NCBI RefSeq assembly: GCF_029962835.1
Contig: NC_080586.1
Location: 70,743,001 to 70,807,000, forward strand
Length of the DNA stretch: 64,000 nucleotides
Reading direction: 5' to 3'
Source: Magnolia sinica
Taxonomy: Eukaryota; Streptophyta; Magnoliopsida; Magnoliales; Magnoliaceae
The stretch's first letter is position 1. The number at the start of each line of letters is the position of its first letter. The position numbers were made by a program, and so were the translations under genes. Below are positions 5,914 through 64,000 of this stretch, in pieces. Below the pieces are notes generated by a model, which was not told the origin of the DNA, did not search any database, and saw nothing but the letters and a program-made list of their open reading frames with translations.

Positions 5914-6473
5914 GGGCCTGTTAGATTTCCCAAATCCTCTGTAAATGCATTGCAAATTGGTAATAATTATTTCCTTTAGTAATTACCGCATCGTTCTCGA
6001 GGGTTGATTTGACTCATATTTTTTTCAATGCTAAAATTGAGGATGCTGCCAAATATATGTGGGGCCTGCTGTGATGTATGTGGCTTATCCACACCGTCCA
6101 TCCGTTATGCCAACTGAATTTAGGCCATGAGCCAAAAAATGAGGCAGATTCAAAGTTCAAGTGGACCACAGCACAGGAAAAATGGAATCGAACACTCACC
6201 GTTAAAAACTTCTTGGGGCCACTGTTTACTTTGGTGTGAGCCACTTGAGTGCTGGATCTGCCTCATTTTTCGGCTCATGTCTCAAAATGTTTTGGTAAAA
6301 CGGATGGACGGTGCGGATGTCATATACATCACGATGGGGCCCACAAATATAAGCCAGTCCTTTTGGACTGGTTTTCAAAGCAGAAATACCTGCCTATTTT
6401 CAAACAGGGTGAAATTGTAATAATTGGTTTTTTACAGGGCATTTACAGTGAATTTGGGAAATCAAACAGGCCC
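5914..6473. mobile_element. Tourist-like MITE with fold-back core
   Basis: The ends GGGCCTGTTAGATTTCCCAA and (reverse) GGGCCTGTTTGATTTCCCAA are near-perfect inverted repeats, flanked by TAA on both sides (5911-5913, 6474-6476). This is the PIF/Harbinger Tourist pattern. The interior is a second inverted repeat with the arms CACCGTCCATCC and GGATGGACGGTG, the core shared with many elements in this window. Confidence 0.85.
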
Positions 6474-29320: not shown

Positions 29321-32300
29321 CTGACCAAAACAAACAGAACAACACCAAATGTTGACTGCCTTTAGAAGTGTGACGCTTACAGAACATCAACCAAGTTGAG
29401 ACCAAGATTTCCAGTTACCAACTAAGTGTCAGCAGAGAATCTGATATGAAAGGGGGAGGGTACATGGGTCTAGTGGTACCGGTACCACCATAAGCTATGG
29501 TAGTTCTGGGAACATGTGGGGACCACATGATGTGTGGGCTACATCTACTCCGTCCATCAGATGCGTCACCCTAAAGTACCCCCGGGGCCTAAAATTCAGG
29601 CCGATCCAAAACCCAGGTGAGCCACAGCATTGGGAATAAGCTGGGAGGAGATGTCCACCCTTGATTTGATGGGGGCCCACCATGTTATGCATATGGAATC
29701 CAGGCTGTAAAAACCTTTCATCTGGCCTGGCACCAAATATCAGATGGGCCCCACAGAAAATCAAGGGTGGGTGTCCCCACCCACCTTGTTCCCTGTTCTC
29801 TGATTTTCTGAACTTGGGGGTTTATTGAGGTGACACATCGGATTGATGTGTTGGATGAAATATATACATCTCATGGGCCCCACATCTGCCTGGTACCACT
29901 GATGCCAATGCCAAAGGAGCACCTGTTTATGGAGACAGTGAGACACCCTTTCTTTCTACTTATGCTAATAGAATAGTGCAACTTGCTTGAGGATAGTGCA
30001 TACGCCCATGCACATATACAAGGCAGCTCATGTATAAGCTACCCTATGTGCCACTGTGGCAATTAACTATAAGATTCAATCCATCCATCAGGGTGGCCCC
30101 CCTGTATAGATGCCCTGGTCCAAGAAATCAGTAGGTTCACTAATCAGGTGTACCACAGTTTATGGAACAAATGTATGGCTGAATAAAACTTGGGTCAGGT
30201 TTTCAAATCCGTCCAACTATTTCTACCATCGTGGTGGTCCACCTGATGAACAGACCAGCCTGATTTTCGGGTTAGCAGATCGTCAAGGTTGGCGGCTGGC
30301 TTGGATGTTGTACTTGTTTGCTGTGCTGGCACATGTGGTGGCATGGAGATGACAGTCCTTGTACACATATGGGGTTAGCAAACCTCCTTCGTGATAATTG
30401 AGGGAATTTGTTATTGGGGTTAAACATCTGGGTTTCCCTTGCCCATCCCTTCGGCCATGTGGTTGTCTTAGCTGAAGGGGCGCCTTGCGCTTCTCGCATT
30501 ATTTCAGGGACCATATCCCCTACAAGTTCATACCATTGCATCACCAAAAATGTGGGAGAATGCCAATTCAATATAATATTTTTTAAGATTAACTAAAGTA
30601 ATCAAGCATCTAGAAGAATCAGATCACACTTTGTTACGGGTCACGCACTTATGACACTCACTCCCATCCCCTAATACGCAAAAGATGGAATAGCAGAATC
30701 ATGGTAATAGGGCTGTGAAAGGTGGGGCTTGGGGTTGGCTTCAGCCTAGAAATTGAACTGGTCAGGCAGGCCTATTCAAAATTTTGATTTTTCATGGCCT
30801 GCGCCTGGCCCATTGACAGCCTACATAAGTGTAAATTTCGGTACAGGTAGGAATCGAAGGAATGCGAATGCTACTAGCACCAGCAGGATAAGAAACTACT
30901 TGTGTGCCAGCATTGCACCCACGCATAAGATCTAGGGCATTCATCACACAAACCCTCCACGTACCCTGGCTCAAATAATCAGGCAAGTCTGCTCACCAGG
31001 TTGGCCACACAAGTAAATCAAATGTGGACCATAGATTAGCTGTCCATTTTTCATAAAGAGGGTGCAAACTTCACAAAAAGAAAGAAGAAAGTAAAAAAGC
31101 AATACCAACTAAAAAAAATAGTTAAAAAGAAGCAGCACATGAGACGTACCTTATCAATGTCCAACCCAGCTGGAACAAGTATACTGAAAGGATCCTCTCT
31201 TGGAAAGGTATCAATCATGCGTTTTCTGCATTCCTTAAGCCACTCTTCATCATGAAATCCATCGTGCAAGTTCAAAAGATCGTTCAGCAACCTCATGGAA
31301 GGAGTAGCCTCCCTCTTCAGTATCTCCATCTAAAAATTGAAAAAGAGTAGAAACTTGTGTGGCATTCCAGCAATGAATGTAACTAGAGAAAAACAAAAAG
31401 GCAGTGCAAGGAGAACTTGGGTGTTTGATTATCATACCTCTACCCTCCTGTACAAGAGATCTAAACTTCTAATGGCATCCTTTTCATCCTGGCGAAATAA
31501 AGAATAGAAGATAAAAATCCATTATCAGCCTTGTGATGGGAGAAAAATCCAATGATAGACAATTCCACTGAATTTCTTGTCATAATAAAACCAGTATATA
31601 CAGAAAGGCAAATTTCATTGTATAAAACCATTATGTTTAGCAGAAAAGCACATCAGTCAACAAAACAAAATACATCGACAGCATGAAGAAATAGACACAT
31701 GACAATTGTTTCAATAGGCTCTATTTATACCAAGTTATAAGAAGAATGGGAAAGATGTAACACCAATGACTATTTTAAAGTAAAGCCTCCTAGTGGTGAT
31801 GATCTCAAGCGTACAAAATTGAGGCAGGGTTTCAAAGTTCATGCTACCTCTCAAAGAGAGAGACAAACTCCAGCAACAAATCAAAAAGAGAAATGGTTAA
31901 GCGATTCATGCAAATGAATGAAGAGGCGATTCACAGCAGAAATGCAGACCACTCACCAGGTGGTCACATTGTGAGCATGACCTGGGACAAAAATCAGGCT
32001 GGTTCATTCAACAGATGGGCAACACAATCGTGAGAAAACATGGATCGTTAGTGAAAAGATTACCACGGGTCTATATTCCAATGCACAGAGTGGCCCACCT
32101 GCTTAGTGGACTTTTTGTGCCAAGGATATGTTCATGGCAGGACCTATCTGATTGAAGCATGCCACGTCTATCATGAGAGAACCAAGCACATTAAAGTAGA
32201 TTGCCACTTCATCCTGGAGAAAGTGGCTAGCAAGGAAATTTGCATCAATGTTTTCAATATCGGTATCGACGAATGTAATGCACCCTTGAGATACAAAAAT

Positions 32301-35300
32301 ATATCGGGTTATCCATTGGACATATCGGATATATCGAATAATGTTTTGCTGTTTTTGGGAAACATTGGAAAAATTGTCCAATTTTTCAATGAAACTTCAA
32401 ATGTTAAAAAGGACATCATCGTACACTTAGAAATCAAAATATCACAAAAAAACAAGTGCACATAAAAAATTTTCTTTGTATAATGTCCTAAACTATGCAC
32501 GGTCTGACAAAAGTGATGCAACTATATATATATATATATATATATATTCACACATGCACTCACACCACAGTGGAATTTCACCACAATGGGTACTCGAACC
32601 CATGACCTCGTGTTGAAACTCTTGTGAGTCTACCACGGAGGCACGAGTAAGGACCCAAGTGATGCAACTATCTTAAAATCAATTCATATCATTTATAAAT
32701 CTAAGAAATGGATTAGAAGATTTGACAGAAAAAAAGGGATTTGTAAGGTTTTTTTCATTTGCAAGTGAGGTTGTCACTATCGATGTACCGATAATACTAT
32801 TGCCGATACATCATCGATACAATGCGATACATTGCAATAATATCGCCGATATCCAAAAGTCCCGCAACTCCCTATGGGTTTCGTATCGTTGAACTGCGAT
32901 ATTGATAATATCGAGCGATTCACAAACATTGATTTGCATGCTATTTGTCAAGTCCCAAGATCAATTGGCAAGTATATTCACTAAAGCTCTGGGCGGTACT
33001 CATTTACATCGTCTCTTTGTCAAGCCAGGCATTCACAATATATATGCTCCCAACTTGCAAGGGAGTGTAACGGGTGTGGGCCGTACCACTGTACGGCCGA
33101 GCCATCTCCATCTTCTAGCACTTATATGCCATTTAGAAGAGTTTAGGACATAATGGATATTATTGCTTTTGCTATTAAAGGACACAACTGGTATTTTTTG
33201 CTTTTGTTACGTGCGCACGCACGCACACACACGAACTGTACATGTAAACTCAAGCCATATAATTCGTGGGCTTCAATTCAGATGGATATTGAACATAATT
33301 AAATTGATTTGATGTCCTGCTTGGCTGATTGGTGGACATTTAATGGACAGCAGGACAAGAACATTCAATGGTCCAAATTCAACAAACAGATGCTAATTAA
33401 TCAGAGATTAGGACCACCAAATCAGTATGAACTTTGGAAACTAAATTCTCTAATACTGCCCCACAACTTGGACAGTTTTGGTTAAGCTGATGTATGCCAC
33501 ATCTGCAATTTCAAAGTGCTCGAGTATCAACTATCACACTCTACTGAATTAAATCCCTTTGACAACCACTTCTCCACCCCTCTCCTGCATCTTGCAAACC
33601 ACTTCTTCTCTCCCCACATGCACAGTATGTGTCATATCCACTAGTATTATTTAAGGTGAGTGCAAAACATATTCAAGAGTTTTGCTAAATATGTAACCTC
33701 TACATAAGGACAGCTTGTGCGAACATGGCATGTGAGTGGGAAATGAGACTTGTAGGTGGACCCCCATGATGAAGATACCTAACCCAAAACTAGATCAGTC
33801 AACTCAGCAGGTAGGCCACATCACCAAAAAAAAAAAAAAAGGACAGTTGCCAAATGCCAGAAAGTCCATATTCAACCTACGCTACAGCCTGCTTGACCTC
33901 TGGACCGGTTTGAGTTTTGACTTTGTACCAGACCAATTTCATATGGAGCCCACCTGATCCATAGCTTGGATGTCAACATTTTCAACAAGATTCTTGATCT
34001 TTGCCAGAGGTTGAGTGTTCCCTTGCATCATGCTCCCTGGGAGACAAATTAGTTGGAGAACTCAGGAAAAGATTGTGTTTCCTATCCCTGTAGTTTCAGG
34101 ACTCTGATTTTCTTTAAGCAATTCTTTTGACTCCTTATTGCTCTTTACAATATATATACACATACAGAGAGAGATGCTCACATGCAACTAGTTGTATGTC
34201 CAACTAGTTGGTGTGTGGGACCCACCATGGTGTTTGTACATCACCTTGCCCACCCATTAAAATTATCCTATCATGAAAATGAGATGCCCCAAAAATTAGG
34301 TTGATCCAACTTTTAGGTGGGGTACACCACAACATTCACATGAAGCATCCCATTTTCCTGGTTGGATCGTCCTGATTTTTAGGGCATCCTATTTTTATGG
34401 TGGGACAATCTTGCCGGATGGACAAGATATCATACAAACACCATGGTGGGCCTCACACACCAACTAGTTGTGTGTGAGCATTACTCATGTGTGTGTGTAT
34501 ATATATATATATGGAAAAGGTTCTATGCGGTCGAGCTCATGGGAACTTCCCATGAGGTCGAGCTGTGTGGGCCACCATGATGCGTGTTGACCATCTACCC
34601 CATCAATAAGATGCACCATTCCATGGTGGGCCTGGGGCTTAAAAATCAAGTCAATCCTTGACTTTTGTGGGCCACACCACATACAAAAGTTGAGAGGGGA
34701 TACCCACCATTAAAACATTCATAATCATTTGTTGGGCCCACCGAGATGTGGTTCACAAATCCAACCCATCCATTGTGTCTGTCGTACTTGGATGAGGGGT
34801 CAAACCAAGTTTCAGATGCATCCAAATTTTAGGTGGGCCCCACCAAGTGTTTTTATATGTTTTAGGCATGTCTTCACACGGTTTTAGATGGTATGGCCCA
34901 CTTGAGTTCCGTATACAGCTGATTTTTGGGATATCCCATAACCTAAAGGGGACCCATCAAATGCACGATGTTGATGGTCTACACGCATCAAGGTGGGCCC
35001 CACACAACTCGACCTCATGGGAAGTTCCCATGAGGTCGGTTCTATGAGGTCGAGCTCATGGGAACTTCCCATGAAGTCAAGCTGTGTGGGCCCCACCATG
35101 ATGCGTGTCGACCATCAACACCGTGCATTTGATGGGTCCCCTTTAGGTTATGGGATATCCCAAAAATCAGCCGTATACGGAACTCAGCTGGGCCATACCA
35201 TCTAAAACCATGTGAAGACATGCCTAAAACATATAAAATCACTTGGTGGGGCCCACTTGAGTTTTGGATGTGGCTGAAACTTAGTCTGACCCCTCATCCA

Positions 35301-38300
35301 AGTGAAACACACAATGGATGGGCTGGATTTGTGAAACACATCTCAGTAGGCCCAATAAATGATTATGAATGTTTTAATGGGAGGGTAATCCCTATCAACT
35401 GTTGTATTTGGTGTGGCCCACCCAAGTCATGGATTGACTTGATTTTTAAGCCTGTGGCCTAACATGGAATGGTGCATCTGGCTGATGGGATAGATGTTCA
35501 ACACACATCATGGTGAGGCCCACACAGCTCAACCTCATAGAACCATTTCCCATATATATATATATATATATATGGAGGGCGTAGCGATATATATACCTTT
35601 ATCTTAGTTAGACCAAGCACCCACCACACTCTGTTGAGCGGGCCACACGGGGGTGTGCCCCAAGGCCATCGTTCACCAGTCAAGCCTTACGCAATGTGTG
35701 TGTGTATGTGTGTGTGCGTGTGCCCACCATGCTCTGCTGAGTGGGCTGTAAGCCATGGACCGCAAGGCCATCGGTCACCAGTCAGGCCTTACACAACGTG
35801 TGTGTGTGTGTGTGTAGGCATAGTTGAGAAATTCTGTATGCTCGGAAATGGAAACAAAAGTGATCAAGAAACATGAGACTAAGCATTGAAGTATACTTTA
35901 AAATACTAAAAGAAATTTCAATTGTACTTATGACACAACACAAGAATGAAAGATATTTTAACAATGTAGAAAAGAGAGAAAACTGTTAAGAAACTGAAAT
36001 TAGAACGCATACATCACGTCGAGCAAGGTCAAGGCGATTCCAAATGACCATTAGAACCAGTTCGGTAAGTTCGCCTTTATCAGCAGCCTCCTCAATTTTC
36101 TGCATATTGAAAAACGGAAATGCAATTATGAACATCAGTTCCAAGAGAAGAGGTCGCTATTCAAGCAAAAGTAGGCAAAAAAGAGAGTATGAAACAACAA
36201 ATATAGGGTCCGGATGCAAACACGATGTGTAGTGTGACTAGTGTCCTAATTAGTCTGTGTGACACTACAACTAGGGTCCATGATTCAGTGATCCAGACTG
36301 TTGGTCTGATGGAACCCCACTGGGGATAGGAGTTGCCCCAAAAAACCTTTCACACTGTAGCACTGTTGACATCCAACCTTTGACATTTTTCCCAGACCAT
36401 TGCTGTCTTTTTCTTAATATTTTCTCTAGATACTGCTCAAAGTGTTTTGGGGCATTTCCCATCCACGTAGGCAGTAGGCCCATGAAATAAACGATCTGTA
36501 TCAACCCCACTCATATGGACTAGGCCTCATTAGGGCACTCAAATTCAGATGTGTGTGAACACTTATGAGTATGTAAGTGTGCGCATGTGCATACAAGATG
36601 AGTTTGTGCATGCGTGTGTTCATGCCAATGTTTTCCGTATTGTTATCACGTAATGTATCACACCCTTGGGATACAGATACATATTAGTTGTCACATGGGA
36701 ATGGGATATATTGGTTGTATCGCGTAATGTATTGTTGTTGTTGGGAAACAATGAGAAATTGGTCAAAATTTTCAATGAAACTTCAGGGATTATTAAAAAG
36801 GACATCAATACATACTTAGAAATCAAAATTTTTTTTTTTTTTTAAAGGCGCGATTATAGGTTTCCTTTGTATGGGGTCCTAATCTAGTGTTGCCTCCTGA
36901 ACTGATGCAAGTATATTCAAAGTCTATACATATAATTTATAAATGTAAGAAGACATGTATGGAAACACAAGCAATACGTTCAAAAGCAAAAGAAGTAGAA
37001 AAATAGAAATATAACATGTGAATAATGTGTTTAGTTGTGGCTTAGACTCAAATAGAGTTGCACGGTGGCTCGAAATCATCATCTTCATCTCAAAGAAGCT
37101 GAGCGTAGTACTGCTAATCCACAAATCAACAATATTATGTCCAAGTCATAGTAGAATGATATCAGTGAAGATACAATCTAACATAACGTTGGTACTCATC
37201 CTCTCTAATTTGAAAATTTTTGGGGAAATTTTGAATTTTCCACAAATCGGCCCATCTTTCCCCAAATCCCAAAATTAAGTATATGTGATGACGATTTCAT
37301 CAAACACTTCTAAATACTCTAAAATAGGGGGCCAATTGACCGTTGATCGAATTGGAATTTTGAAACAAATATAATTTTTTTTAACATTTTTAATTAATTT
37401 TCAATTAAAAATAATTTTTTTTGTCGAAAAATCTTTGAATTACCAAGAATCACTAGATTAGGTTACATATATGTTCAATTTTGTATTCGGATACAAAGAT
37501 TACAATCGATTTGCGAGAAATTGAGAAATTTCGATTTTTCACAATTTTTTACAACTTAGCCCGTCTCCCCCAAATCTCAAAATTGAAGCTCCAAATCCAT
37601 GATTTTTTATGCAAAACATGAAGAACCATGGATTTTTAACCATTTGACATTGATTTAACAAGATTTACAACAAAACCAAAAAAGAATCGAAAATTGAAAA
37701 TGCTCACTGGATCAAACAAGTAGGATATATCATCACTACCTGTGCGTTTCGTATTGCACAAGTGGGATACAATATATATCGTGGGATGTATTGGCTGATA
37801 TCGTTGATCCTGAAAACATTGGTTCATAATTGTGCTTGTGGGAATTGCTAATGTCTCCACCTTAATGACGATGAACACACATACAACATATGCACATGTC
37901 CAGACTAAAATTTTAAATTCATCAAGCTTACATACAACAATTGGAATGCATGCTCACATCCAAATCAAAATTTGAAATTCATAAGCCCTGTCTATAACAA
38001 AAAGGGAATGATGTAGAAATAACCATTTTTTTAACACACACACACACACCCCACATGGGCACTCAAATCCATGACCTTGGTGTTGAAATAGACTCTGTCT
38101 ACCATTGAACCATGGGTTGGAACCCATGTAGAAATATCCACATGTATGAGTATACAAAGAAAAGGTAAGCAAATATACCTACTTCGTGGGGATGTTAGTA
38201 ACATCCCTGAAGCTTTTAAATAACACATGGGACAACCAATCATCGATCTGGATTGTCCATTCATTCCATGCCACTAGGGGCATGCCGTTGTGCAAAATCC

Positions 38301-41300
38301 AAGCCAATAGAATGATCTGAATCCTTCAACATTTGGACATTTTCATACAACCATCCATTTTTTACGGGGTTGTATAGCTTGAGATTCTAAGCCAACTAAA
38401 AAAAGGGTTGTGTCGAGTTGGCAGCTGTTGTCAAACTTATGCCATAACTTTCATCATGAATCCGAACCAGAAGATGAATCAAATGGTTAGCATCATACAA
38501 CCAAAGCGTGTCTATGACCTTCTTATACTGAATCTATTCCTTCTGGTATATCTCCTTTTATTGAAATATTTCATCATTTATAAGAGAAGATACTACTGGC
38601 ACACTTCTCTCTAGTGGAAAAAAATGCCTAGTTCAAATGCCTCTTGATGAGGCGCATCCAAGCACCTACACGAGTTTATCGAAGGAAGAGAGCTGGGGCC
38701 CCAGCCCTAGCTTCATTATGGTTGGATGATCATTACATGGGGCCCCAATTCAAGTTCTTAGACACGTTAAAGACCCTAAATACATGATTGTGCATCTTTG
38801 AAGACCCCACATTAGGAAGATGCATGTATGTTGCTTATTTGGAACTGATTGATACATCTTTGGCCTGTTTGACGTCACCTAGCCTAACCTAGACCACATT
38901 TGGAAGTTACAAACGTTAGACCATGCCATTGGATATCTTGAACACATTGGTTTGGTGATTCAGACCGTTGGCTATGTTTGGAGACTTGGGTTTAGACGTA
39001 CGGACACTCTAGTTTGCACATTCGAGTCATGAACATGTGGACCACATTCATTAAAGACGTTGATCACATGTGGACGTGTGGACGTACCTGTTGCACATTG
39101 GAGATCATCCTTGTGCTATGTGGCACATCTCTATTTCTACTTTATTTTTCAGTTTTATTTAAGATTATTAGAGATTTATGTTTTGATCATGACCGTTTAT
39201 AGATTTGGACAGTCAAGAATCGTTCTAGACTTAGGGTTTGCTTAGGTTTTCTTACATATATTTGTTTGAAACTTGACACTTGAGATTATAGACATATTGA
39301 ATGAAATTTCTCTACATTACTTCTTTGAGCAGGAAAACTTCTTGTGAATGGAATTTAGTGTGAAGCCATTGGAGTGATTCCAAGTTATCTTTCTTATTCC
39401 TATCTAGGTATTTCTTTCTTCTCTCTCTCAAACCCTCTTTTCCTATTGAATTTTTCTCTCTTCTTTCTCAAACCCTAGCTACACCATCATCAATCCAACC
39501 GATCACTGACCAAACCGACCCAGTCCCACCACGCCATCCGTACAACTGTATGGACGTTCCCGTACGCTGCACAGATCTATTTGTATAGCCGATCCTCCCT
39601 CCCATTGATCATTTTCTCTTCTTCTCTATTTTATAAAACCCTAACCCTAGTCCTAGCCTTTTATAAAACCCTAAATTCCCAATTTTTTATTTTCAAACCC
39701 AAACCCTAATCCATTCAAACCCTAACATACTGCAATTGAATCATCGAATCTAGAACAAATCCTATGCTAGATGGAAGTTCTACCTTCCATTGGGCCATTT
39801 TCAATCAATATCCTTAAGGATCTATTTTGCCGGATTGTGATGTGGTCTTGAACTTGAGTTTAATTGAATATTCGATTTCTTTATATTTGTGGTAGATTGG
39901 CTTTATTTGATGCTTTGATTTACTTTGTTAATCCATTAATTAATTTATTTGCATCATCATAATTTACGCCACCCATCCTACATCAAATTTTGGTATCAGA
40001 GCTATGGTTAGCATAGAGTTTAGTGAGCCCATTACATTTAGAGTCTAGGGGTTTCATATTGTCGTGTCTAGAGTTAGCAATTTTTTCCATCTTCATTACA
40101 TTACGTTTAGGGAATTTAGTTGTCAGCTCTTCCCAGTTAGCATTCCTAGTTTATGCCCACCCGTAGTGGGCGTGGTTTTGGTCTACATTCTATCATGAAT
40201 TTGGAACAGCTTACCAATACTATCAATGCCATCGATAACTGTCTCACGACCGTCGAGGCCCAAAGTAGAACCACCAACAACCAACTGGCAGCCCTCCAGA
40301 ATGAGACCAATACTCACATGACCAAGTTGGGAACTTCCCTCCATGTAGACCATAAAAATTTGGAAGATGACCAATCCTAAGCGGGAGGTCAAGGTGGAGG
40401 ACGCGAGAGAGGATGTGGCTGAGGAGTTGGCCGTGGTGGGGGGCGTACCCAACTGCCCCTTGGAGAATACTAAACCCACCCTGATCCCGATGAGCAAGTG
40501 ATGAAGAACATAAAGATTGAAGTGTCGAGTTAAGACAGTCGCTTAGACCCAAAGACATTCCTCGACTAGCTAGCAAATATGGATCATTATTTTGAGTAGT
40601 ACGATATGTTTGATAGCTGTTAGGTGAGGCTCACCAAGATGAAGTTGGTGGGCCAAGCCAAATTGTTTTGGACAAATATTGAGTGGAAGATTGAGAGGTC
40701 TAGTGAAGATCCAATCTCACAGTGGATTGAGATGAAAGAGATCTTAAAGGAAAAGTATCTTCCCCTCTCTTACCGCCAGAGGCTCATGGATTAGTGGCAA
40801 TCCCCCGTTAGGGATCTATGCCCATGGTTGATTACATCACAAAATTTGATGAATATATGATGCAGTGTAACATTAGAAAGGACCCGTTGGTGACCCTTTC
40901 TCGCTTCAGAATGGGCCTCCAACCCGAGCTTCAACGTGAGCTCATTCCTCACGACATCAACACCTTAGAGTATGCATATCAAGTGGTAGAGGTGGGCATC
41001 GAGTCAAGTCGGACCAAGTTAGGTCTAACTCGACTCGATCTGGTTTTGAACAAGGCTTGACCCGAACTCGATCCCACTTTGTACCGAGTCCAGCATGCCT
41101 GACTCGATCCGAGTCCCGGTCTAGGCTGGGCTTCTCCAAACTGAGTCCGACCCGATAAAAAATACTGAGTCGGATCAAGTTCGCACCAATTCGGATCGAG
41201 TACGGCCCCTGTGCTTCTCTTTTCTGACCCAGAAAGGATGCTGCCCACTCTTTTGTACGACCATATCTCCTCATACAATCGCATGGTGTCCCCCACCCCT

Positions 41301-44300
41301 ACCGTGCCATCCTACACGCTCGTAGCCCTTCGACCCTATTCCGCGCCTATTACTGTATCGCCTCGCCTCTCTCTCTCTCTCTCACGTGAGTGCAGTTGTT
41401 GAAATTGGATTGCGTACTGAGTAAACTCAGTTGGGCCCACCTTGAATGTATGTGGTCTATACACGCCGTCCATCTGTTTTTCCATTTAATTTAAGGGGTT
41501 GAGCCCAAAATTGAAGCACATCCAAAGATCAAGTGGATCATACCACTGGAAATAGTGGGGATAATGATTTCCACCGTTGAAACCTTTCTAGCCCCACAGT
41601 GATGTTTATTTGTCATCCAACCTCTTCATACGATCATAAAGACATGGATGAAGGTAAAAAACAAATATAAGCTTGATCCAAAACTTCTGTGGCCCCCAAG
41701 ATTTTTTCAACGGTAGAAACTCAATTAAACTATTTCCTGTGGTGTGGTCCATTTGAACATGGGATATGCCTCATTTTTGAGCTCAAGAAATGGATGGACG
41801 GAGAGGATAAAATACATAAATCATGGTAGACCTCACAGAGTTTACTCGATATGCTAAGCGTAGCACTATGCAATCCGCTTCCGCAGTTGCTGACTGTTTT
41901 GGATCTCTTTGAAATCGGATTGCATACTGAGTTACTTAGTACACTATTATCATATCGAGTAAAATGATTTGGGCCCACCTTGAATGTATGTGGTATAACC
42001 ACGTCGTCCATCCCTTTTTCCGTCTAATTTAAGCGGTTGAGCCTAAAAATAAATATATCCAAAGATTGGGAGGATCATACCACAGAAAACAATAGGGATA
42101 ATGATTTCCACCGTTGACAGCTTGCTAGGCCCTACAGCGATGTTTATTTGTCATCCAACCTGTTCATAAGATCATACAGATATGGATGAACAGAAAACAC
42201 AAATATAACCTTAATCCAAAACTTTTGCAGCCCCCTAAAAGATTTTCAATGGTAGAAGTTCAATTCAACTGTTTCCTGTGGTGTGGTCCATTTGAACATT
42301 GAATATGCTTCATTTTTAGGCTTAAGCCCTAAAATTATCTGGGAAAATGGATGGATAGAGCGGATAAAATACATAAATCATGGTGGACCTCACAGAGTTT
42401 ACTCAATACGCGAATCGTAGTGAGTTACTCACTACGCAATCCGCTTTCGATTTCTCTCTCCGGGATTTGACATGTACACCCCCACATTTCTCCCTAGGAT
42501 TTGACATGTACAGCCACTCGGATTTGACATGTACACCCATTCTATATACTCTACCTGACTATCCGAGTCAAGTTGGGTTTCGGATCAGGTCAAGTCTGAC
42601 GGATCGAGTTTCGGGTCGAGTTACGGGTAACTAGAACTTGACTCGATTTGAGTTCAGATTGGGCGAAGCCTACTTGGTTCGGACTGACTCACCCACTCGG
42701 TTCGGGTCGAGTCGGGTCTGAACGAGTCAGACGAGTCGAGTCGGTTCGTGCCCAGCTCTATCAAGTGGTGCAAGAACTCGAGCAGTATCTGAAACAACAA
42801 TTCATGAGGCGATTCGACTCATGCGATTCTAATGTCAAGGCCAATCCCCATGTAGTTAAGCCTAATTTTGGGACTCATTTTAAAGCCCCTACTGGCACTT
42901 CGTCCAACAACCGGGATGTGAAGGGTAAAAGTTTAGTTGGTACTAGCTCGAGGGGAAGTTAGCAAGCGTGGTGTTACGAGTGCCAAGGATACAACCATTT
43001 CGCATACCATTGCCCTACGAAAGAGCGAAATAAGGCCATCGTGATTGCCAAGTTGGATAGGGATGATCAGTGTGATTATGAAGAAGTCCATGAGCTCGAA
43101 GTTGGTACTAGTGATGAAGAAGCTGAAAAAGTTGAGGCCGCGGCACTTACAATTGTTAGATGCGCCTTGGCTCAGGCTAAAGAAAGTGATAATTAGTGCA
43201 GGAATTCAATTTTCCATACTTCCACTACGTGTGGTGACAAAAACTATAAAGTAATAATTGAAAGTGGCAGTTGCACTAATGTGGTCTCCATTAGCATTGT
43301 CTTTCGTTTGGGTTTGAATACCATCCCTCGCCCAGTGTTCACAATATTGATACTATCGGCCGATATTATCAGTATCCCAACCCAGCAATACGAAACCCGT
43401 CGGAAGATACCAAGAATTTTTTTTTGAAATTGTATGTAAATATCCAAAAAAATTGGAAAAAAAAAAGAGGAAAACTTTCAACATGTGGATTTCCGTACCT
43501 GTAGAAGAGTTTGCGCTGATCGGAAGCTGCATTTAATGGGCCATTCGAATCGAAGTGCATTGTTCGAAGGGAATTAATTTCAGAAGTTTGTAGGGAATTG
43601 ATTTCGAAAGATAATGCGAAAAAAATCCAGAGATTTGGGAGAGAAATTAGGGTTTTAGGGGCCGAAACCCTCTCTGCTTTGAAATAGGACTTCCGAGCCT
43701 TTTTTTTATCGCGCGGTCAAAAGTCGATTTCATGCGAAAGATATTCGTGCATGAAGTACACGCACTGGGATGATAGGTGGGGCCCATTGTGATGTTTGTG
43801 AGCAATCTGCCACGTCCATTTGTTTTGCAAGCTCATTTTAGGACATGCGACCAAAAATGAGGTGGATCCAAAACTCAAGTGGGCCGCACGAGAGGAAATA
43901 GTAGGGATTCAGTGACCATCGTTGAAACCTTTTTTTGGCCACATAAGTTTAGAATTAGGATAAGTTTTTATGTTTTCACTTCATCCCAATGGGAATGACC
44001 TCATAAACGGTTTGGATGACACATAAACATCAAGGTGGATCCCAGGAAAGTTTCAACGGTAGGAAACTCTTTCCCCAGTTTTCCCTCTCGTATGGCCCAC
44101 TTGAGTTTTGGATCCACCTCATTTTCGGTCGCATCTCCTAAAATGAGCTCGTTAAATGGATGGACGGGGTGGATTTCTCACAAACATCACAGTGGGCCCC
44201 ACCTAGCATCCAAGCGCAAGAACTTCCTGTGAAAGCCTTTTGCAGGAAATCTACGTCAGGCGCGGATTGAACGGATGGTCCTGTCAAAGGCTCTGTACGG

Positions 44301-47300
44301 CGCACCGTGATGTATGTGTTTTATCCACACCGTCCATCCATTTTGATAGGTCATTTTAGGGTATAAGGCTAAAATGTAGTTAAATATAAGGCTCAAGTGG
44401 ACCACATGACAAGAAGTCGTGGTGGCAATGATATCCACCGTTGAAGCTTTTGTAGGGCACATTGTGATGTTTATTTGTCATCTAGTCTGTTCATAAGGTC
44501 TGACGGACCTAGATGAAGGGAAAACATAAATATTAGCTTGATCCAAAACTTTTGTAGCCCCTAATTTTATTTTTTTTAACGGTGGCCATTCAATGACCAC
44601 TTTTTCGTGTGGTGTGGTCCACCTCATTTTTGGATTTGCCTCATTTTTTGACTCATTCCCTAAAAAAATATGCCAACATGAATTGACGGTGTATATACAC
44701 CATATTACGTCGAGGTGGCCCGATAGTCAGGGTACCACCATATTAAGTACATCCTCTGATGTGGTCCACTTGATCTCTAGATCTGCTTCGTTTTTTTCTC
44801 AGGCGTTAAAATGATCCAAAAAAATGAATGGACGGCATGGATACAGTGCATAGGGCCCACACAATCTGCCTCATTTTTTGAGCCAATACCTATCGAAAAG
44901 TATAAATATCAAAGTCAGGAACAGGAGAGCGGATAAGGTGAGACCCAATACTCACCCAAGATGGTGCGGCTACAGGGCCCACCTTAATGTATGTATTATG
45001 CATCCATGTCGTTCATCCGTTTTTCCAAATCATTTTAGTGTAATATCCAAAAAACGAAGCACATCTAATTATCACGTGGACCATCCCAAAGGAAAAAAGT
45101 TGTGATTGACTATTAAAGGGATACAAAAGTTCTGGATCAATCTGATATTTGTTTTTTCCTTTCATCCAAGATTATGTGAACTTATAACAGATTGGATGGT
45201 AAATAAACACTATGAAAACACTGAGGTGAGCCCTAAGAAGGTTTTAATGGTAGGGCCTTCAATCAATATTGTTTCCCATGGCATGGTCCGCTTGATAATT
45301 GGATATGTTTTTTTTTTTTTTTTTTTTGGGTATGGTGCCGTAAATTAAGGTGTCAAAACAGATGGATGGTGTGGATATACATGTCTTGATGCATTTATAA
45401 ATGTTATGCAACATATTTAAATATAGTTGTTTTAGTTCAATCAGACAGCGCATAACTTAGGACCCTATACAAAAGAAACCTATTATGTGCACTTTTTTTT
45501 TGAGATTTTATGATTTAAAAGTGTGTATTAAGGTCATTTTTAATAATCCCTGAAGTTTCATTGAAAAATTCAAACATTTTCCCAATGTTTCCCAAAAGGT
45601 GCGATAAATTACGTGATACAAACGATATATCCCATGCGATAACCGATACGTATCTGTATCCCAAGGGTGCGATATATTGTGCGATACCGATATTTCGAAC
45701 ATTGCCCTCACCCTTAGTCCTATCGAGTTTCATAGGTTGATGCATCGCCAATGTCAGTTTCTCAGTGGTCTCTTTTTCCCATTCAGTTTCCTCCTACAAA
45801 TACATGTTGTGGTGGGATGTTTTGCCCATGGATGTAGGCCACATCATTTTGGACTGACCTTGGCTGTATGATCGTGATGTGACACAATTCGGTTGTTCGA
45901 ATACGTGTTCTTTTATTTGTGAAGGTAAGAGGATCAGGTTAAATCTTCTCCACGCCAAAAGTGCCCTAGAAAAGGAGGGCGTAAAGAATGGTGATTCGAA
46001 TTATGTGAAGAAGCCTCAACCTATGTCTCTCCACATAATAAACGTAAAATATTTTGAAAGAGAGGCTAGAGTTTATTTGACGATTTACGCCCTCAGGGCA
46101 AGAGAGGTTAGTGTAGAGTCATCGCTTGAGGTGATTTTGGCATTGGAGGAGTTCCATGATGTTTTCCCAAAGGATCTACTGAATGAGCTTCCACCCATGC
46201 AAGACATTCAACATGCTATCGATTTAGTCCCCGGGTTGACTCTACCAAACCTCCCCCACTACCGAATGAACCTCGCAGAGCATGAAGAATTGGAGAAGCA
46301 AGTTGATGAGCTTCTTAGGAAATGGTTCATTTAGGAAAGTTTGAGTCTGCGTGCTGTGCCAGCCTGCCAGCCCTCCCCACGCCTAAGAAGGATGGCGCGT
46401 GGAACATGTGCGTGGACAGTCGAGCCATCGACAAGATCACTGTCAAGTATCAGTTTCCAATACTGCGTCTTGACGACATGTTGGATATGATGACCAATAC
46501 CACGATCTTCTCTAAAATTGACCTCAAAAGTTGGTATCATTAAATACGTATTCGCCCATGAGATGAATGAAAGACAACCTTCAAGATGAAGGATGGGCTA
46601 TATGAGTGGTTGGTCATGTCTTTGGCTTGATTAATGCTCCAAGTATGTTCATGAGAGTGATAACCTAGGTGTTGGGGGACTTTATGGGTAAGTTTCTAGT
46701 GTTATATTTCGATGACATCCTCATTTATAGTACTTCCAATGAACAACACTTCCACCATTTGAGGTAAGTTTGTGAGGTCCTTGGAAATGAGAAGCTATAT
46801 GCCAATGTTCTTTCATGTTTGATAAAGTTTTCTTTGGGTTCATTATTTCATTTGAAGGCATGTCTGTTGATCACGAGAAAGTCAAGTCTATAGTAAGTTG
46901 GCCCGAACCACAAAACATTCATGAGGTGTGTATCTTCCGCGACTTGGCTACTTTTTATAGGCGATTCATTCAAGGCTTTAGTTCCATTATGACTCCTATC
47001 ACAAATTGCCTTAAAAATGGAGAGTTCAAATGGACTAATGCTGCCTCCAAAGCATTTAAGGAGATTAAGGTTAAAATGATTGAGACTCCTGTCATGTGCC
47101 TTCCCGACTTTTCTAAAGTCTTCAAGGTTGCGTGTGATGCATCTAGTATAAGTATAGATGGAATGCTTAGCCAGGAAGGGCACCTTGTTGCCTATTTTAG
47201 TGAGAAGTTGAATGAGGCGAAGCAACATTACTCTACCTATGCCAAGGAATTCTATACAGTAGTCCAATCCTTACGACATTGACGACATTACCAACTACCA

Positions 47301-49666: not shown

Positions 49667-49713
<47 letters not shown>

Positions 49714-57274: not shown

Positions 57275-58136
57275 TCCAATAAAAAATGACAACGTAAAAT
57301 TGTTGTCCTAACGCAGCCTGCTGAAGCTGCAGCCCTCCTTTAACAAATCTGGATCTCACAGGAATGCAATTGCACGAGACAACTAAGCCCCACAAAGAAG
57401 GAACCCACCCCAAAATTCACGACATGTACGACTTATTTGTAATCATCGTGGTTGGGTAGGACACATTATCAATAAATGTTATATTCTTCATGGATATTTG
57501 TCGGAGCATCGTCTTCACAAGGATAGCACACACGCTTCTACCAAGTACCAACTGCAAATCCCGCTGAAGCCCCATTTGCTGAGAAACCACGGACTATCCT
57601 GATTTCGACGAATTTGCCACTTACATCAGAACAATGTTGCCAACTTCTCGCTCTCCTTAAGATGGTAACTCCTCACCCATGGCTCACCAACCGAGTACTT
57701 CACAACCTACAACTAATCTTTCACGTATTTCTCTTTGTTTTGCCTCTTCATAATTTTGCCCCATGGATCATTGATATTAGCACAACCAATGTTCGAGTTG
57801 TCAGTATCGCTACAAGTTTCGCTGGCTGGAGATAAAGATATAATATCGTTATCACCGATAAAATCGCTGATAACCGAAAATGCAGAGAAAAAGGGGGAAA
57901 TATGGAGCAAATGGTGGAATTTTTCAATAAAACTTCAGGACATGCCTAAATACACATATTTACATATTCAGGAATGAAAAAATTGCAAAAAGAATGCATT
58001 AAATAATAAGTTTCCATTTAATGGGGGCCAAAAGGCATGTGTTGTTGTAAGAAATCTCTCAAATAATAACCAAAATGAGTTTGTATAATACAAATGCAAG
58101 CTTATAATAATTAAGACGTGCAAAAGTAAATGAATT

Positions 58137-58231
58137 CAAAAAAATACACATTTCTGGCCATATTTCATCCCCACATAGAGTGAGGAGGTGGCAAAAGTAA
58201 AAAAAAAAAAAATACACATTTCTGGCCATAT
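58137..58231. repeat. 66-bp direct duplication in H4
   Basis: AATACACATTTCTGGCCATA occurs at about 58143 and again at about 58210, each preceded by an A-rich run and GCAAAAGTAAA. Confidence 0.75.
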
Positions 58232-58690
58232 TTATTACATCCACACTGTTCATCCATTTTGGGAGATCATTTTAGAGCATAATCCCAAAAATAAATCATA
58301 TCCAAAGTATAAGTGAACCACACCACAAATAGCAATGGGACAATGATTGGTATCATTAAAACATTCGTAGGGCCCACCATAATGTTTATTTTCCATCCAA
58401 TTTGTCCATTAGATCACACGGACCTGAATGAAGAGGAAAAACAAATATCATGTTGATCCAAAACTTCGATGACCCCAAAAAAGGTTTCAATGGTAGATGT
58501 TCAATCCCCAACTGCTTTCTATAGTGTGGTCCACTTGATATTTGGATCTGTCTTATTTTTCGGTTCAAGCCTTAGGACGGGCTCGCCAAATAGAAGGACG
58601 GTTGGGATATTACACATACCTCATGAAGGGATCCACAAAACTTGGTGATGTAAACACGTCAGCCAGGTGTGTGGTATACTAGCTAATCTG
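58225..58690. repeat. Fold-back core element in H4
   Basis: ATCCACACTGTTCATCC on the left faces AGAAGGACGGTTGGG on the right, with the core segments TGGTCCACTTGATATTTGGA and AACTTCGATGACCCC. The right end AACTTGGTGATGTAAA...AGCTAATCTG resembles family C (59759). Confidence 0.65.
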
Positions 58691-58694
58691 TTTC

Positions 58695-59745
58695 CGGAAA
58701 TGGATTTCATGTGCCAAAGGAAGCAGATTGTGTACTGAGTAGTAAACTCTATGGGGCCCACCGTCATTCATGCGTTGTATCAACTCCATCCATCCATTTT
58801 ATCATATAATTTTAGGGCTTTAAACCAAAAATTAATCATATCCAAAGCTCAAGTGGACTACACCACTTGAAACAGCGTGAATTGAAGTCTACCATTGAAA
58901 AGTTATTGGGGGCCCACTAAAGTTTTAGATTAAGATGATATTTGTGGTTTCCCTTCATCCATATCTGTGTGATCTTATGAAAAGTTTGGATGACAAATAA
59001 ATATCACTGGGGGTGTTAGAAAGGTTTCGACGGTGGAAATCAATACTTCCACTGCTTCCTTTAGTATGGTCTACTTGAGATTTTGATATACTTCAATTTT
59101 GGGCTCAACCCCTAAAATGATCTGAAAAAACGGGTGGACGGCGTGTATAAACCACATGAATTCATAGTGGGCCCAACAGAGTTTACTCAGTACGATAAGA
59201 GGTAACTTAGTGCGCAATCCGATTTCTGTGCCAAAGGCTTTGGCAAGAATTTCCTGCGCTAGGATGCTAGGTGGGGCCCACCATGATATTTTCGAAAAAT
59301 CCACCCCGTCCATCCGTTTTTCCAGATCATTTTAGGACTTGAGACTTGAGACCAAGCATTAGATGAATCTAAAACTCAAGTGGGCCATACAAGAAGGAAA
59401 ACTGGAGAAAGAGTTTGCTACCCTTCAAACCTTTACGGGCTCCACCTTGATGTTTGTATGCCATCCAAACCGTTTATAAGTTCATTCCCATTGAGATGAA
59501 GTGGAAACACAAAAAGTTTAGCCCGATACGAAACTTCTATGGTTACATTAATGTTTAAACGATGGTCACTGAATCTTCACTATTTCCTCTCCCGTGGCCC
59601 ACTTGAGTTTTGGATCCACTTGGTTTTTGGGCTTATGTCCTAAAATGATCTGGAAAAATGGATGGATAGGGTGAATTTTTCAAAAAACATCATGGTGGAC
59701 CCCACCTAAGCATCCCAGTACGCTAAGGGTGTGCATATGCAACCC
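58695..59745. mobile_element. Fold-back element B2 interrupted by A3
   Basis: The left end GGATTTCATGTGCCAAA continues after A3 as GGCTTTGGCAAGAATTTCC, GCTAGGATGCTAGGTGGGGC. The right end has CCCCACCTAAGCATCCCAGT. It is the inverted counterpart of B1 (43742-44240). The edges are approximate. Confidence 0.65.
58719..59226. mobile_element. Mutator-type MITE A3, nested in B2
   Basis: The ends GGAAGCAGATTGTGTACTGA and (reversed) GAAATCGGATTGCGCACTAA match. A perfect 9-bp duplication TGTGCCAAA lies at 58710-58718 and 59227-59235. Confidence 0.88.
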
Positions 59746-59758
59746 ACTTCCTTAAAAT

Positions 59759-60322
59759 GGATGCAGATTAGCTACTGACAAGTTGAGTAGCGAGTAAGTT
59801 ATGTCACCAAGTTATGTGGGTCCCACCATGATGTATGTTTTGTATCCACACCGTCCGATGTATGTTTTGTATCCACACCGTCCATCCATATGGAGAGACC
59901 ATTTCAGGGCATTAGCCAAAGAATGAGTCAGATCCAAATCTCGAGTGGACCCCACCACAGAAAATAGTGGAAAGAGTGATGCCTACCATAAAAAACTTAT
60001 AAAGTTTTCGACCAAGCTAATATTTGTGATTACCCTTCTTTAATGTCAGTGTTAACTTATGAACAAGTTGGATCTCAAATAAACATCACAGTGGACCTTA
60101 GGAAGGTTTCAACGGTGGGGTCACTCTCTTCACTGTTTTCTATGGTGGGGTCCACTAAAGCTTTGGATCTACCTCATTCCTTGGATCACATCCTAAAATT
60201 CTCTCTCCAAATGGATGGACCGTGTGGATACAACACATATATTATCGTGGGACCCACAGAACATGGTAATGTCACAACGGTATTAGTCGCGGTATGAACC
60301 CATGAGTAGCTAATCCGCGTCC
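59759..60322. mobile_element. Mutator-type MITE C1
   Basis: The ends GGATGCAGATTAGCTACT and (reversed) GGACGCGGATTAGCTACT match. A perfect 9-bp duplication CCTTAAAAT lies at 59750-59758 and 60323-60331. The interior is the fold-back core, with a 27-bp tandem duplication (ATGTATGTTTTGTATCCACA) near 59830-59883. Confidence 0.88.
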
Positions 60323-62866
60323 CCTTAAAATAGGGTTTAAAAAAAACAGGTTTCGAGGCTGGCAAGCCGGAGAAGTCGTTATCGGAGGATCGTTTGACGG
60401 AAAATGCAATCTTTTGGGGGATTTTGTTCTTACCTCTTGAAGAATGGTTACCGCCGCTGCTAAGCTTTGAAATGTCCCTCTTCAAATCGATCCGAACGAA
60501 AAAAAAAAAAAAACAGGTATTTTCTTCTTCTTCTTTTTCTTGGATTTCAACGATATTATCATCGAAAACATGGCCCCTTTATCGATAAAATGTAAGTAGT
60601 TGGATACAATTCTAACCCGTGGTTGGTGGGAACAGTAAATTATCGACGATATTTAGAAAATATCAAAAAACCAATATTATCAGCGATATTTCGGTAATAT
60701 TCAGCAGAGAAACGAAAAAATTGGTTTTCGGTTTCGATGACCCAGTGATACCGATATTATCAGCGACAATTCGATATTGTCATCGATAATTTAAACACTG
60801 AGCACAAGCAACAACATTGTTAGCTCCGTCACCCAACTCTCTTCTATTTCTTCTCTTGGTTTCCACATCTGTGACACTTCCAAATGGTAGTCTTGTATGT
60901 ATCTCCCATATTGGTACAATTTCTTTACTACCATCTCTTGTTTTACAGGATGTGTTATGTGTCCATTCTTTCAACTTCAATCTTATTTCTACTAGCAAAC
61001 TCACTCGTAGGTCAAATTGTTCCATAACCTTTTCCATCTACTTCTTGCATAATACATGACCTATCTTCAAGGACAATGATTGGAGTGGGTGAAGAGAAAA
61101 TTAGCCTTTACTACCTCTCCCATCAACCAAGCTCTAACTGTTACTTCATCCTTTGACCTTTGGCATCAAAGACTACGACATCCTTCTCGAGACCGGTTGG
61201 AATTTTTAGCTAAAACTATTCATGATATTTCTTTTTCCAAAAGAGAACATTGCAATGTATGCCCCATTGCTAAATAGATTCGCCTTTCTTTCTCTTCGTC
61301 AAATTTCTACTATTGAACCATTTCAATTGATACATTGTGATATTTGGGGGAGTTATTCCACCCCATCATTCAGTGGTGCACTTTATTTTTTTACCATTGT
61401 TGATGACTTTGCACGTTGCACTTGGGTTAATCTCATGCATCGTAAGTTATAAAAAAGTCACCTTCTCAAATCCTTTTTTGCTTTGATTAAAACTCAATTT
61501 GGTCGTATTATAAAACAAAGACAAAGTGATAATGCCATAAAGGGATTGACTTTGATATGCAAAACTTCTTCCAAGAAAACAGTGTCATTCGTCAACACAG
61601 TTGTATTGCTACCCCACAACAAAATGGTGTTGTTGTATGCAAACATCGCCATCTCATGTTGCTTGAGCTTTTCAAGCTCACTTGCCCATTTCCTTCTGGG
61701 GAGAATGTATACTCACAACCACTTACCTCATCAATTGAACACCAACCCTGCTTCTTTCTAGTCCCACTCCTTATGAAGTACTCTTCAACTCTAAACCCTC
61801 TTACTCACACTCAAGGGTCTCTGTGTGTCTTTGTTATGCTTTAACCTTAACTGCAAATCGATCAAAGTTTGATCCACGGGCAAGAAAATGTGTGTTCATT
61901 GGCTATTCTCATGGTGAAAAATGCTATAAAGTATTTGATATTAAAACACAAGAATCTTCACTTCCAGAGATTCATTTTTTCATGAAACTGTCCTCCCCTT
62001 TCAAACTCAAAATCCGAATACCTCTCCATTGGTTATACCATGTCCCATTCCAAATCAGGATAACTCAATTGATATCTCGATGTCCCAAGAGTCTTCGTAC
62101 ACTATTCCTTCTCAGGTTTTCGATGACCATTCAGCTCTGTGACGTTCCACTCGCACTCGCCGACAGCCAAGCTATCTCCATGACTTCCATTGCCAATTGG
62201 CCACGCAATCTTTGCCCACCCTAATGACATCTTCTTCGACAGACTATTCAGTAAGTAGTCCTCATTAGTCATTCCTTGTCCAATTTCTTATGTTATGAAA
62301 AACTATCTCCCTCTCACTATGCCTTCTCTGTAGCCATTTCTTCTAACACCAAGCCTAGTAACCTTCATTTAGGTTGTCAAGGATCCAAAATGGTGTGAGG
62401 CCATAGTTGTCGAAAATCACGCATTGAAGGAGAACGACACTTAGACCCTCACTCCATTACCAAGCCATAAGAGAGCCATTGGATGAAAATGGATTTACAA
62501 AATCAAGCACAAATCCGACGACTCCATTGAATGTTATAAGGCTCGTCTTGTAGCAAAAGAATATAGATGGCAAGAAGGGTTGGATTACCATGAGACATTT
62601 GTTCCTGTCGCAAAATTGGTTAGTGCGCGGTGTCTATTGGCCATCGTTTCCATATAAAAAAATGGCATCTTTACCGACTTGATGTTCATAATGTGTTTCT
62701 ATATAAGGATCTCCATGAGGAAGTCTGCATGACCATTCCACTTGATTTTGCTCAAAAGGGGGAGACAAGGGTGTGTCATCTCAACAAATCGTTGTATGGA
62801 CTCGAGTAAGCATCACGACAATGGTTTGCCAAATTTTCTATGGCCCTACTTGATACTGGTTACACC

Positions 62867-64000
62867 CGGTGTTTAAATTATCGGCGACAATATCGAATTG
62901 TCGCCGATAATATCAATATCGCTAAGTCATCGAAACCGAAAACCCATTTTTTCGTTTCTCTGCCGGATATCGCCGATAATATCGGTTTTTCGATATTTTT
63001 CTAAATATTGCCGATAATACTATTCCCACCAACCACGGGTGGGAACTATAGCCAACTACTTACATTTTATCAATAAAAGGGTCACGTTTTTCGCGATAAA
63101 ATTGTCGAAATCCAAGGGAAAAAAAAAAGAGAAGAAGAAGAAAATACCTTTTTTTTTTTTGCTTGGATCGATTTGAAGAGAGACATTTCAAAGCTTGGCA
63201 ACAGCGGCAACCATTATTCAAGAGGTAAGAACGAAATCCCCCAAAAAATTGCATTTTCCATCAAACGATCCTCCGATGGCAACTTCTCCAGCTTGCCAGC
63301 CTCGAAACTCGTTGGCAGGGCTACGAAAATCAGAGATTCGTAGGAATTTTTTAAAATTTGGTATCGAGGGGGAGGGATTTTCGGTTTCGGAGGAATTTGG
63401 GGAAGGGTTTTTGATTTTTAACCATATTTTAAGGGGACGCGCATTAGCTAATCGCAGGTTCATACCACAACTAATACCATTATGACATTACCAAGTTCTG
63501 TAGGTCCCACCATGATATGTGTTGTATCCACACAGTCCATCCATTTGGAGAGATCGTTTTAGGGCATGATCTAAGGAATGAGGTAGATCCAAAGCTTTAG
63601 TGGACCCCACCATAGAAAACAATGGAGAGGGTAACCCCACCGTTGAAACCTTCCTAAGGTCCACCGTGATGTTTATTTGAGATCCAACCTGTTCATAAGT
63701 TAACACTAACATTAAAGAAGGGTAATTACAAATATCAGCTTGATCGAAAACTTCTGTAGCCCTTATAAGTTTTTTATGGTAGGCATCACTCTTTCCACTA
63801 TTTTCTGTGGTGGGGTCCACTCGAGATTTGGATCTGACTCATTCTTTGGCTAATGCCCTAAAATGGTCTCTCCATATGGATGGATGGCGTGGATGCAAAA
63901 CATACATCATGGTGGGACCCACATAACTTGGTGACGTAACTTGCTACTCAACTTGTCGGTAGCTAATCCACATCCATTTTAAGGAAATGGGTTGCGTACG
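62867..64000. mobile_element. hAT-type composite element H5, runs off the window
   Basis: It begins CGGTGTTTAAATTATCGGCG and is the inverted counterpart of the right end of H4 over its whole visible length (about 1.1 kb, with one roughly 125-bp indel near 63310-63430). It contains MITE C2. Its predicted target duplication is GTTACACC (62859-62866), which should recur beyond 64000. Confidence 0.85.
63435..63975. mobile_element. Mutator-type MITE C2
   Basis: The ends GGACGCGCATTAGCTA and (reversed) GGATGTGGATTAGCTACC match. A perfect 9-bp duplication ATTTTAAGG lies at 63426-63434 and 63976-63984. This is the reverse complement of the duplication around C1, so C1 and C2 occupy the same site in two copies of one composite. 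Confidence 0.88.

Follow-up and report, generated by a model that had tools for sequence, protein, structure and literature searches.

What are the TATCG-rich elements that recur in a 64-kb stretch of the Magnolia sinica genome (C14:70743001-70807000 of the assembly, the whole of which is here called the window), and what moves them? They constitute a numerous, delimited new hAT-type family of a well-known kind. Very probably they are non-autonomous hAT elements of M. sinica that depend on a transposase supplied in trans, the BED fingers of which would bind TATCG. An earlier note on this DNA had proposed such a hAT-type family, and the assignment is supported by the element tips, the 8-bp duplications, the subterminal arrays and the genome copies. 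The two ends of an element are called A and B, and the strand given below for each window copy is its A-to-B orientation.

32238..32245: left target-site duplication of E1, ATTTGCAT, an 8/8 match with 32932-32939
32246..32931, plus strand: E1, a 686-bp element with the A end left and the B end right, within a copia RNase H coding region
32932..32939: right target-site duplication of E1, ATTTGCAT
36618..36625: left duplication of E2, GTTCATGC, a 6/8 match with GTTCATAA
36626..37821, plus strand: E2, a 1196-bp element that looks the oldest of the four, its TATCG sites mostly decayed to TATTG/TATCA
37822..37829: right duplication of E2, GTTCATAA
43325..43332: left duplication of E3, CCCTCGCC, a 7/8 match with CCCTCACC
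43333..45704, minus strand: E3, a 2372-bp element with the A end right and palindromic interior modules of ~0.45 kb, in gypsy coding sequence
45705..45712: right duplication of E3, CCCTCACC
57779..57786: left duplication of E4, AGCACAAC, a 7/8 match with AGCACAAG
57787..60800, plus strand: E4, a 3014-bp element with four palindromic modules, in copia coding sequence
60801..60808: right duplication of E4, AGCACAAG
62859..62866: 8-mer on the left flank of E5, GTTACACC, whose partner would fall beyond the window
62867..64000, minus strand: E5, a fifth copy with the B-end tip CGGTGTTTAAATTATCGG, continuing past the window edge

The first requirement for a transposon family is that its members have fixed boundaries. 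E1 to E4 begin CARTGTT and end AACAYTG, and all four of the delimited elements in the earlier note are present. The 8-bp duplications it gave for them stand at 8/8 in E1 and 7/8 in E3 and E4, but reach only 6/8 in E2. Among all 23 CARTGTT x AACAYTG pairs spaced 100-6000 bp in the window, these four are the sole pairs whose flanks match at 6/8 or better, the remaining 19 reaching at most 4/8, and the comparison is conditional, as the motif was itself derived from E1-E4 beforehand. The same level of match occurs in 0.55% of random position pairs. A generic scan (YARNG tips, 9/11 inverted repeats, 7/8 duplications) recovered a second hAT element, H1, and one doubtful pair at 21208-23382, and not E1-E4, whose perfect repeat falls short of the length required. 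Two details required revision. E1 had been extended to 32941, which is too far: the element stops at 32931 and is followed directly by its right duplication. The count of four is correct for the complete elements, but the fifth copy from 62867 had been overlooked, as had an insertion within E1.

32511..32671, minus strand: a short interspersed nuclear element (SINE) nested in E1, with a 131-bp body, a (TA)n tail and a tRNA B-box-like sequence, GGTTCGAGTACC

The SINE is flanked by a 15-bp duplication, AAGTGATGCAACTAT, with copies starting at 32511 and 32657, and E1 measures 540 bp once the SINE and one copy of this duplication are removed. In the other scored copies, genome matches to an E1 query break off by position 299 and do not restart before 411, so among these the SINE is private to E1. 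Searches with ARAGORN and Rfam returned no matches.

Reading frames across the insertion sites provide independent evidence for the boundaries. When the flanks of E1, E3 and E4 are joined after removal of the element and one duplication, translation gives a continuous retrotransposon frame, decay stops aside; three elements do therefore interrupt retrotransposon coding sequence, as had been claimed. For E1, the joined flanks encode 77 residues that align, ungapped across the junction, with nine homologous proteins (15 were found). E4 is flanked on its two sides by copia Gag and SH3 domains, and downstream of E3 there is an RNase H-like domain. The left flank of E5 translates as a copia reverse transcriptase region, judged by what we take to be the reverse transcriptase motif, so E4 and E5 are apparently inserted in the same copia element.

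Shared tips could in principle unite unrelated hAT elements, and alignment of the ends bears directly on this alternative. The A ends align over 206-326 bp (E1-E2 75%, E1-E3, reversed, 75%, E2-E3 73%), and E4 shares a box of the A end with each of E1, E2 and E3 at 72-84% over 43-87 bp. E5 is the reverse complement of the right part of E4 at 83-86% identity. On the other side, the B ends share little past the tip, and E4 and E5 diverge from E1, E2 and E3 across most of the A end. The A end is thus shared among copies more than the B end, and the copies split into subfamilies. As the A ends do align, this split is all that is left of the proposal that the four window elements have nothing in common but their tips, which we regard as very unlikely.

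The tips themselves extend further than first described. The CA(A/G)TGTT and AACA(T/C)TG termini of the earlier note are present in E1-E4, but the inverted repeat is ~17 bp rather than 7-8 bp and includes the first TATCG, as this pentamer is fixed at tip positions 13-17 on both ends. The repeat is imperfect: consensus tips drawn by eye (CAATGTTTTCAATATCG for the A end, CAATGTTTGCAATATCG for the B end) differ at one position by eye, and individual A-B pairs match at 8-14 of 17. This length falls within the 10-25 bp described for hAT terminal inverted repeats (PMC3942097).

Behind the tips lies the subterminal array. Over nine 250-bp window ends (the E5 end being trimmed 3 nt inside the tip), TATCG/CGATA shows the strongest enrichment of any pentamer, with 49 occurrences against 1.33 expected and representation at 9/9 ends; the decayed forms TATTG/TATCA are also in excess (41 against 11.7). 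Ends outside this sample agree. Among pentamers common enough to rank, TATCG again comes first both in 39 genome A ends (107 against 13.6 expected, 38/39 ends) and in eight genome B ends (43 against 2.8, 6/8 ends), one of the latter (L018) having a duplication score within the null range. The first TATCG is also fixed in position. Tip positions 13-17 carry 34 of 45 matching letters over the nine window ends, a score equalled in 0 of 5000 rotations, with exact TATCG at four of nine (P 0.0034). At these positions, the genome A ends (n = 20) have TATCG in six and TATTG or TATCA in nine, and the genome B ends have TATCG in three of eight; the copies being related, these position counts and the enrichment P-values overstate independence.

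Such an arrangement has a well-characterized counterpart. In Hermes, the best-studied hAT, BED fingers bind short subterminal repeats, and the phasing of these repeats from the tip matters (PMC10368747). The fixed TATCG and the array behind it match this design. An alternative is that the elements are hAT elements in which the array does not bind the transposase; it would instead be used by a host factor, bend the DNA or form hairpins, or have arisen in the ends as a by-product of short tandem duplications, and we hold this to be a genuine, if minority, possibility. Spacings between motifs concentrate at 6 bp and at 10-12 bp (10 of 40 at 10-12 bp), which could come from tandem duplication. In Hermes, moreover, mutation of inner repeats caused no dramatic loss of transposition, and a host DNA-bending factor has been proposed (PMC10368747). 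Against this, the two ends, unlike in other respects, place their first motif at the same distance from the tip, which would be expected if the transpososome makes contact there, and H1 bears a different array, ACTCG/CGAGT, as expected if every transposase has its own motif.

Next, a family moved by transposition should have copies at unrelated sites. A search of the 1.84-Gb assembly with E1 gave 7,158 first-look candidates, of which 40 were scored, and 64 matches; 20 copies were examined with 9.4 kb downstream and 19 further copies over ~800 bp. The tip stands at the same place in 20/20 copies (six or seven of seven letters; four of the 19 further copies have tips with only 5/7 letters). Upstream flanks of 300 bp are mutually unrelated on the plus strand, with the exception of one pair, L014 and L017, which lie ~97 kb apart on C17, share 98% identity along 3.7 kb that takes in the upstream flank, and constitute a segmental duplication. 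Flanks of 80 bp at 43 sites, compared on both strands, recover the same pair and nothing more than three short matches (13-21 bp). The ends do not, therefore, extend well beyond CA(A/G)TGTT, the outcome that the earlier note had set as a refutation.

Duplications were scored on the same copies. A duplication of at least 7/8 with a far end of at least 6/7 letters was found in five of 20, namely L009 (646 bp), L016 (1694 bp), L019 (590 bp), L020 (550 bp) and L022 (560 bp). The null averaged 0.47 over 30 trials and gave at most 2; it additionally demanded TG at the element end, and all five copies end in TG. Under a relaxed score, six copies exceed the null maximum: L009, L019, L020, L022, L012 (duplication 6/8) and L015 (8/8, 4205 bp, decayed tip). 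L016 does not, and L018 has an 8/8 duplication at 2006 bp yet falls inside the null range. With its end set by homology, L023 is 507 bp long with a 7/8 duplication, for which the chance is 3.9% among the eight tested. L045 (599 bp, 7/8) is the only copy with a duplication among the 19 viewed over ~800 bp. The copies of 540-650 bp (E1 without its SINE, L009, L012, L019, L020, L022 and L045) are repeated, non-coding and shorter than 1000 bp, and so are hAT miniature inverted-repeat transposable elements (MITEs); the copies of 1.2-3.0 kb exceed this size limit. Three genome copies, L010, L025 and L027, are longer (1.65-2.4 kb collinear); starting at the A tip they are mutually collinear for 1.0-1.7 kb, with an extra stretch of ~840 bp in L010. 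No far ends were assigned to these three.

The insertion sites also have a preferred sequence. Over 42 sites (one of the duplicated pair removed, E5 omitted), base bias peaks within the 8 bp that precede the tip; T is also in excess at -10 (P 0.0014) and, more weakly, at -17 and -19. Matches to GTTnnAAC, a consensus drawn from the same sites it was scored on, average 2.83/6 against a background of 1.65, and 13 of the 42 sites match at 4/6 or better against 4.3% in flanks. The next window outward (-16 to -9) averages 1.40, with one of 42 at that level, and removal of four doubtful sites leaves 12/38. In three half-splits the held-out halves average 3.38, 2.76 and 3.10 against 2.06, 1.92 and 2.06. 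Two general hAT target patterns can be compared with these sites. The pattern of the Buster group, nnnTAnnn, is depleted (one against 4.0 expected among 43 sites). T is present at position 2 in 20/43 (P 0.01), and T at position 2 together with A at position 7, that is nTnnnnAn, occurs nine times against 4.0 expected. The target thus leans towards nTnnnnAn, the pattern reported for Hermes (PMC10368747), over nnnTAnnn.

This preference bears on another possibility, that a different cut-and-paste superfamily making 8-bp duplications, such as P, has come to resemble hAT at the tips only. P-superfamily tips begin CATG, and CAATG or CAGTG stands at most tips in the window and in the genome copies. 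The tips of hAT elements follow (C/T)A(A/G)nG, a form to which the CA(A/G)TG of E1-E4 conforms. The better agreement of the target with the Hermes pattern and the short-repeat subterminal arrays, known in several hATs (PMC10368747), likewise favour hAT. The alternative draws on the fact that the superfamily assignment depends on the ends, the duplication length, the target and one gene fragment, no intact transposase having been found in the stretches scanned. It also draws on one copy, L026, which has a CACTA-like stretch near its A end (by eye), and on a Transposase_21 match in one of 90 stretches near genome A ends (E 0.00048). CACTA elements, in turn, give 3-bp duplications. On balance we consider a non-hAT origin unlikely.

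The search for the transposase covered the window elements and the neighbourhood of genome copies. An autonomous hAT encodes a transposase with a BED finger, an RNase H-like core and a dimerisation domain at the C-terminus (PF05699). Ten stop-free stretches of E1-E4, from 24 in all, gave no hAT domain and nothing above the Pfam curated cut-off. Near genome A ends, 90 of 106 stop-free stretches (at least 100 aa, within 6 kb of 20 genome tips) were scanned with Pfam: PF05699 was found in 0/90, and DUF659, a domain of plant hAT transposases, in 2/90 (L010 and L026), the two matches being placed by scanning 40 of the 90 one at a time. In L026, the A-end block (~497 bp) is collinear with other copies to base 487-497, and bases 486-698, a 213-bp stretch, are 75% identical to the L010 gene on the opposite strand. 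The broken gene fragment (DUF659 E 4.4e-6; L026:763-1068) is directly joined to the A end and is followed by the CACTA-like stretch. This structure would look like an internal-deletion derivative of an autonomous hAT, although a single junction can arise by chance. A DUF659-type hAT transposase is thus hinted at by one copy. The L010 gene itself (L010:5456-7014) is a broken hAT-like gene in five pieces, one of which scores DUF659 at E 2.6e-22; the last piece resembles a hAT dimerisation region by eye only, and Pfam gave none there. It was rejected as the autonomous partner because it is distant from the A tip and outside the collinear part.

If the elements are indeed moved in trans by a hAT transposase, transposition likely involves: supply of the transposase by an autonomous relative elsewhere in the genome; binding of its BED zinc fingers to the TATCG arrays; pairing of the two ends and excision of the element; and insertion at an 8-bp target resembling GTTnnAAC, which would then be duplicated. 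The identity of the transposase, the BED-finger binding and the mobilisation in trans are all inferred here.

Several observations weigh against this account. No intact transposase with the family ends was found in E1-E4 or in the 90 stretches near the 20 genome tips. The DUF659 fragment of L026 is present in one of 20 copies and reads towards the A end, its junction with that end is possibly a chance adjacency, and in L010 the related gene occupies the stretch 5.2-6.6 kb away from the A tip. The 8-bp duplications sought in genome copies hold for the five copies above, but in 10 of the 20 viewed over 9.4 kb the far end is not recognised, and L013 has both ends and no 8-bp duplication. The described packing of subterminal regions with TATCG/CGATA holds across the nine ends, but not for intact motifs in E2, where three sites are no significant excess over shuffles (mean 1.5, maximum 6); CpG-decayed forms there number 11 against ~2.6 expected. 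In the 39 genome A ends, GAAAC follows closely on TATCG (6.6-fold against 7.9-fold), and the relatedness of the copies inflates the position counts and enrichment P-values. The target consensus was scored on the sites that supplied it: the half-splits retain the excess and do not always retain the palindrome, and A at position 7 (19/43, P 0.069) is not significant alone. Finally, Pfam scored none of the three joined retrotransposon flanks (E1, E3 and E4), so the continuity of frame rests on the translations, with homologous proteins for E1 only.

Inside their ends, the three longer window copies (E3, E4 and the partial E5) are filled with palindromic modules of ~0.45 kb that recur in neighbouring elements.

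41410-42430: palindromic modules in H1
43735-45380: palindromic modules in E3
58225-60290: palindromic modules in E4
63460-63935: palindromic module in E5
40987-42760: H1, a second hAT, with tips TAGAGGTGGGCA/TAGAGCTGGGCA (TAGAG) and the duplication TCAAGTGG, 8/8
5914-6473: a PIF/Harbinger-like MITE of 560 bp, with tips GGGCCTGTTAGATTTCCC and a TAA/TAA duplication, near HUA2-like exons

H1 is inserted in the gag region of the gypsy element that E3 also interrupts, its joined flanks are in frame, and its subterminal pentamer ACTCG/CGAGT occurs 18 times against 0.63 expected. Direct repeats at 38741-40000 and 49157-50541, ~10.4 kb apart and 79-88% identical, may represent the long terminal repeats of this gypsy element.

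The odder point is that, by sequence comparison, the palindromic module is common to the TATCG family and to the H1 family. The modules occur in E3, E4, the partial E5 and H1, and are thus not specific to the TATCG family; the genome copy L018 carries related ones. Module 2 of E4 is closest to both H1 modules (77% over 455-459 bp), and reaches at most 71% with any compared module of its own family. E3 module 1 is nearest to E4 module 3 (79%), and E4 module 4 to the E5 module (91%). The module edges, checked for an origin as nested MITEs, have no clear duplication. The modules were either exchanged between end-families or are old nested elements. Tentatively, and with more doubt than conviction, we suggest that the non-autonomous hATs of M. 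sinica are modular: an end-family would keep its tip, its pentamer array and hence its transposase, and the interior cassettes of ~0.45 kb would be exchanged. These cassettes may have spread by gap repair with template switching.

The PIF/Harbinger-like MITE also contains a segment related to the modules. Two more palindromic MITE-like stretches at 34170-35540 are weakly related to them, one having 263-nt arms that are 90% complementary and 12 nt apart. The translated exons of the HUA2-like gene in the window are 100% identical to a Magnolia sinica protein, with 99% of the 903-aa query covered.

Placed beside known systems, the family most resembles Hermes, a hAT of the Ac/hobo/Hermes type, which shares the 8-bp duplication, an imperfect inverted repeat of ~17 bp (Hermes 17 bp), short-repeat arrays in both subterminal regions and target T at position 2 (PMC10368747). 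It differs in its motif, TATCG rather than the AAG(T/C) of the Hermes BED domain (PMC10368747), in its extended target GTTnnAAC, and in having no intact transposase in the scanned stretches. The short copies resemble the Brassica nigra hAT MITEs BniHAT-1 (673 bp) and BniHAT-2 (666 bp) in size, lack of coding capacity, 8-bp duplications and high copy number (PMC7385995). This likeness is one of description; the host is different, and here longer relatives of up to 3 kb in the window share the ends and contain palindromic modules. H1 shares the 8-bp duplication, a subterminal pentamer array and the same kind of modules, and differs in its tips and pentamer. No published description of a TATCG hAT family was among the matches listed in a literature search, and the word hAT is absent from the examined text of the M. 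sinica genome paper (PMC10999834).

The significance of the family is moderate: its interest lies in the phasing of the pentamer, the preferred target and the modular make-up of the interiors. With it, a delimited and numerous hAT family is added to a flowering-plant lineage that branched early. Its cis-signals can be tested, namely the pentamer, which keeps a constant distance from each tip, and the preference for a particular 8-bp target. Adjacent hAT families with distinct pentamer arrays constitute a natural pair for relating BED-finger specificity to the elements that are mobilised, and the interior modules they have in common are relevant to the acquisition and exchange of cargo by non-autonomous elements.

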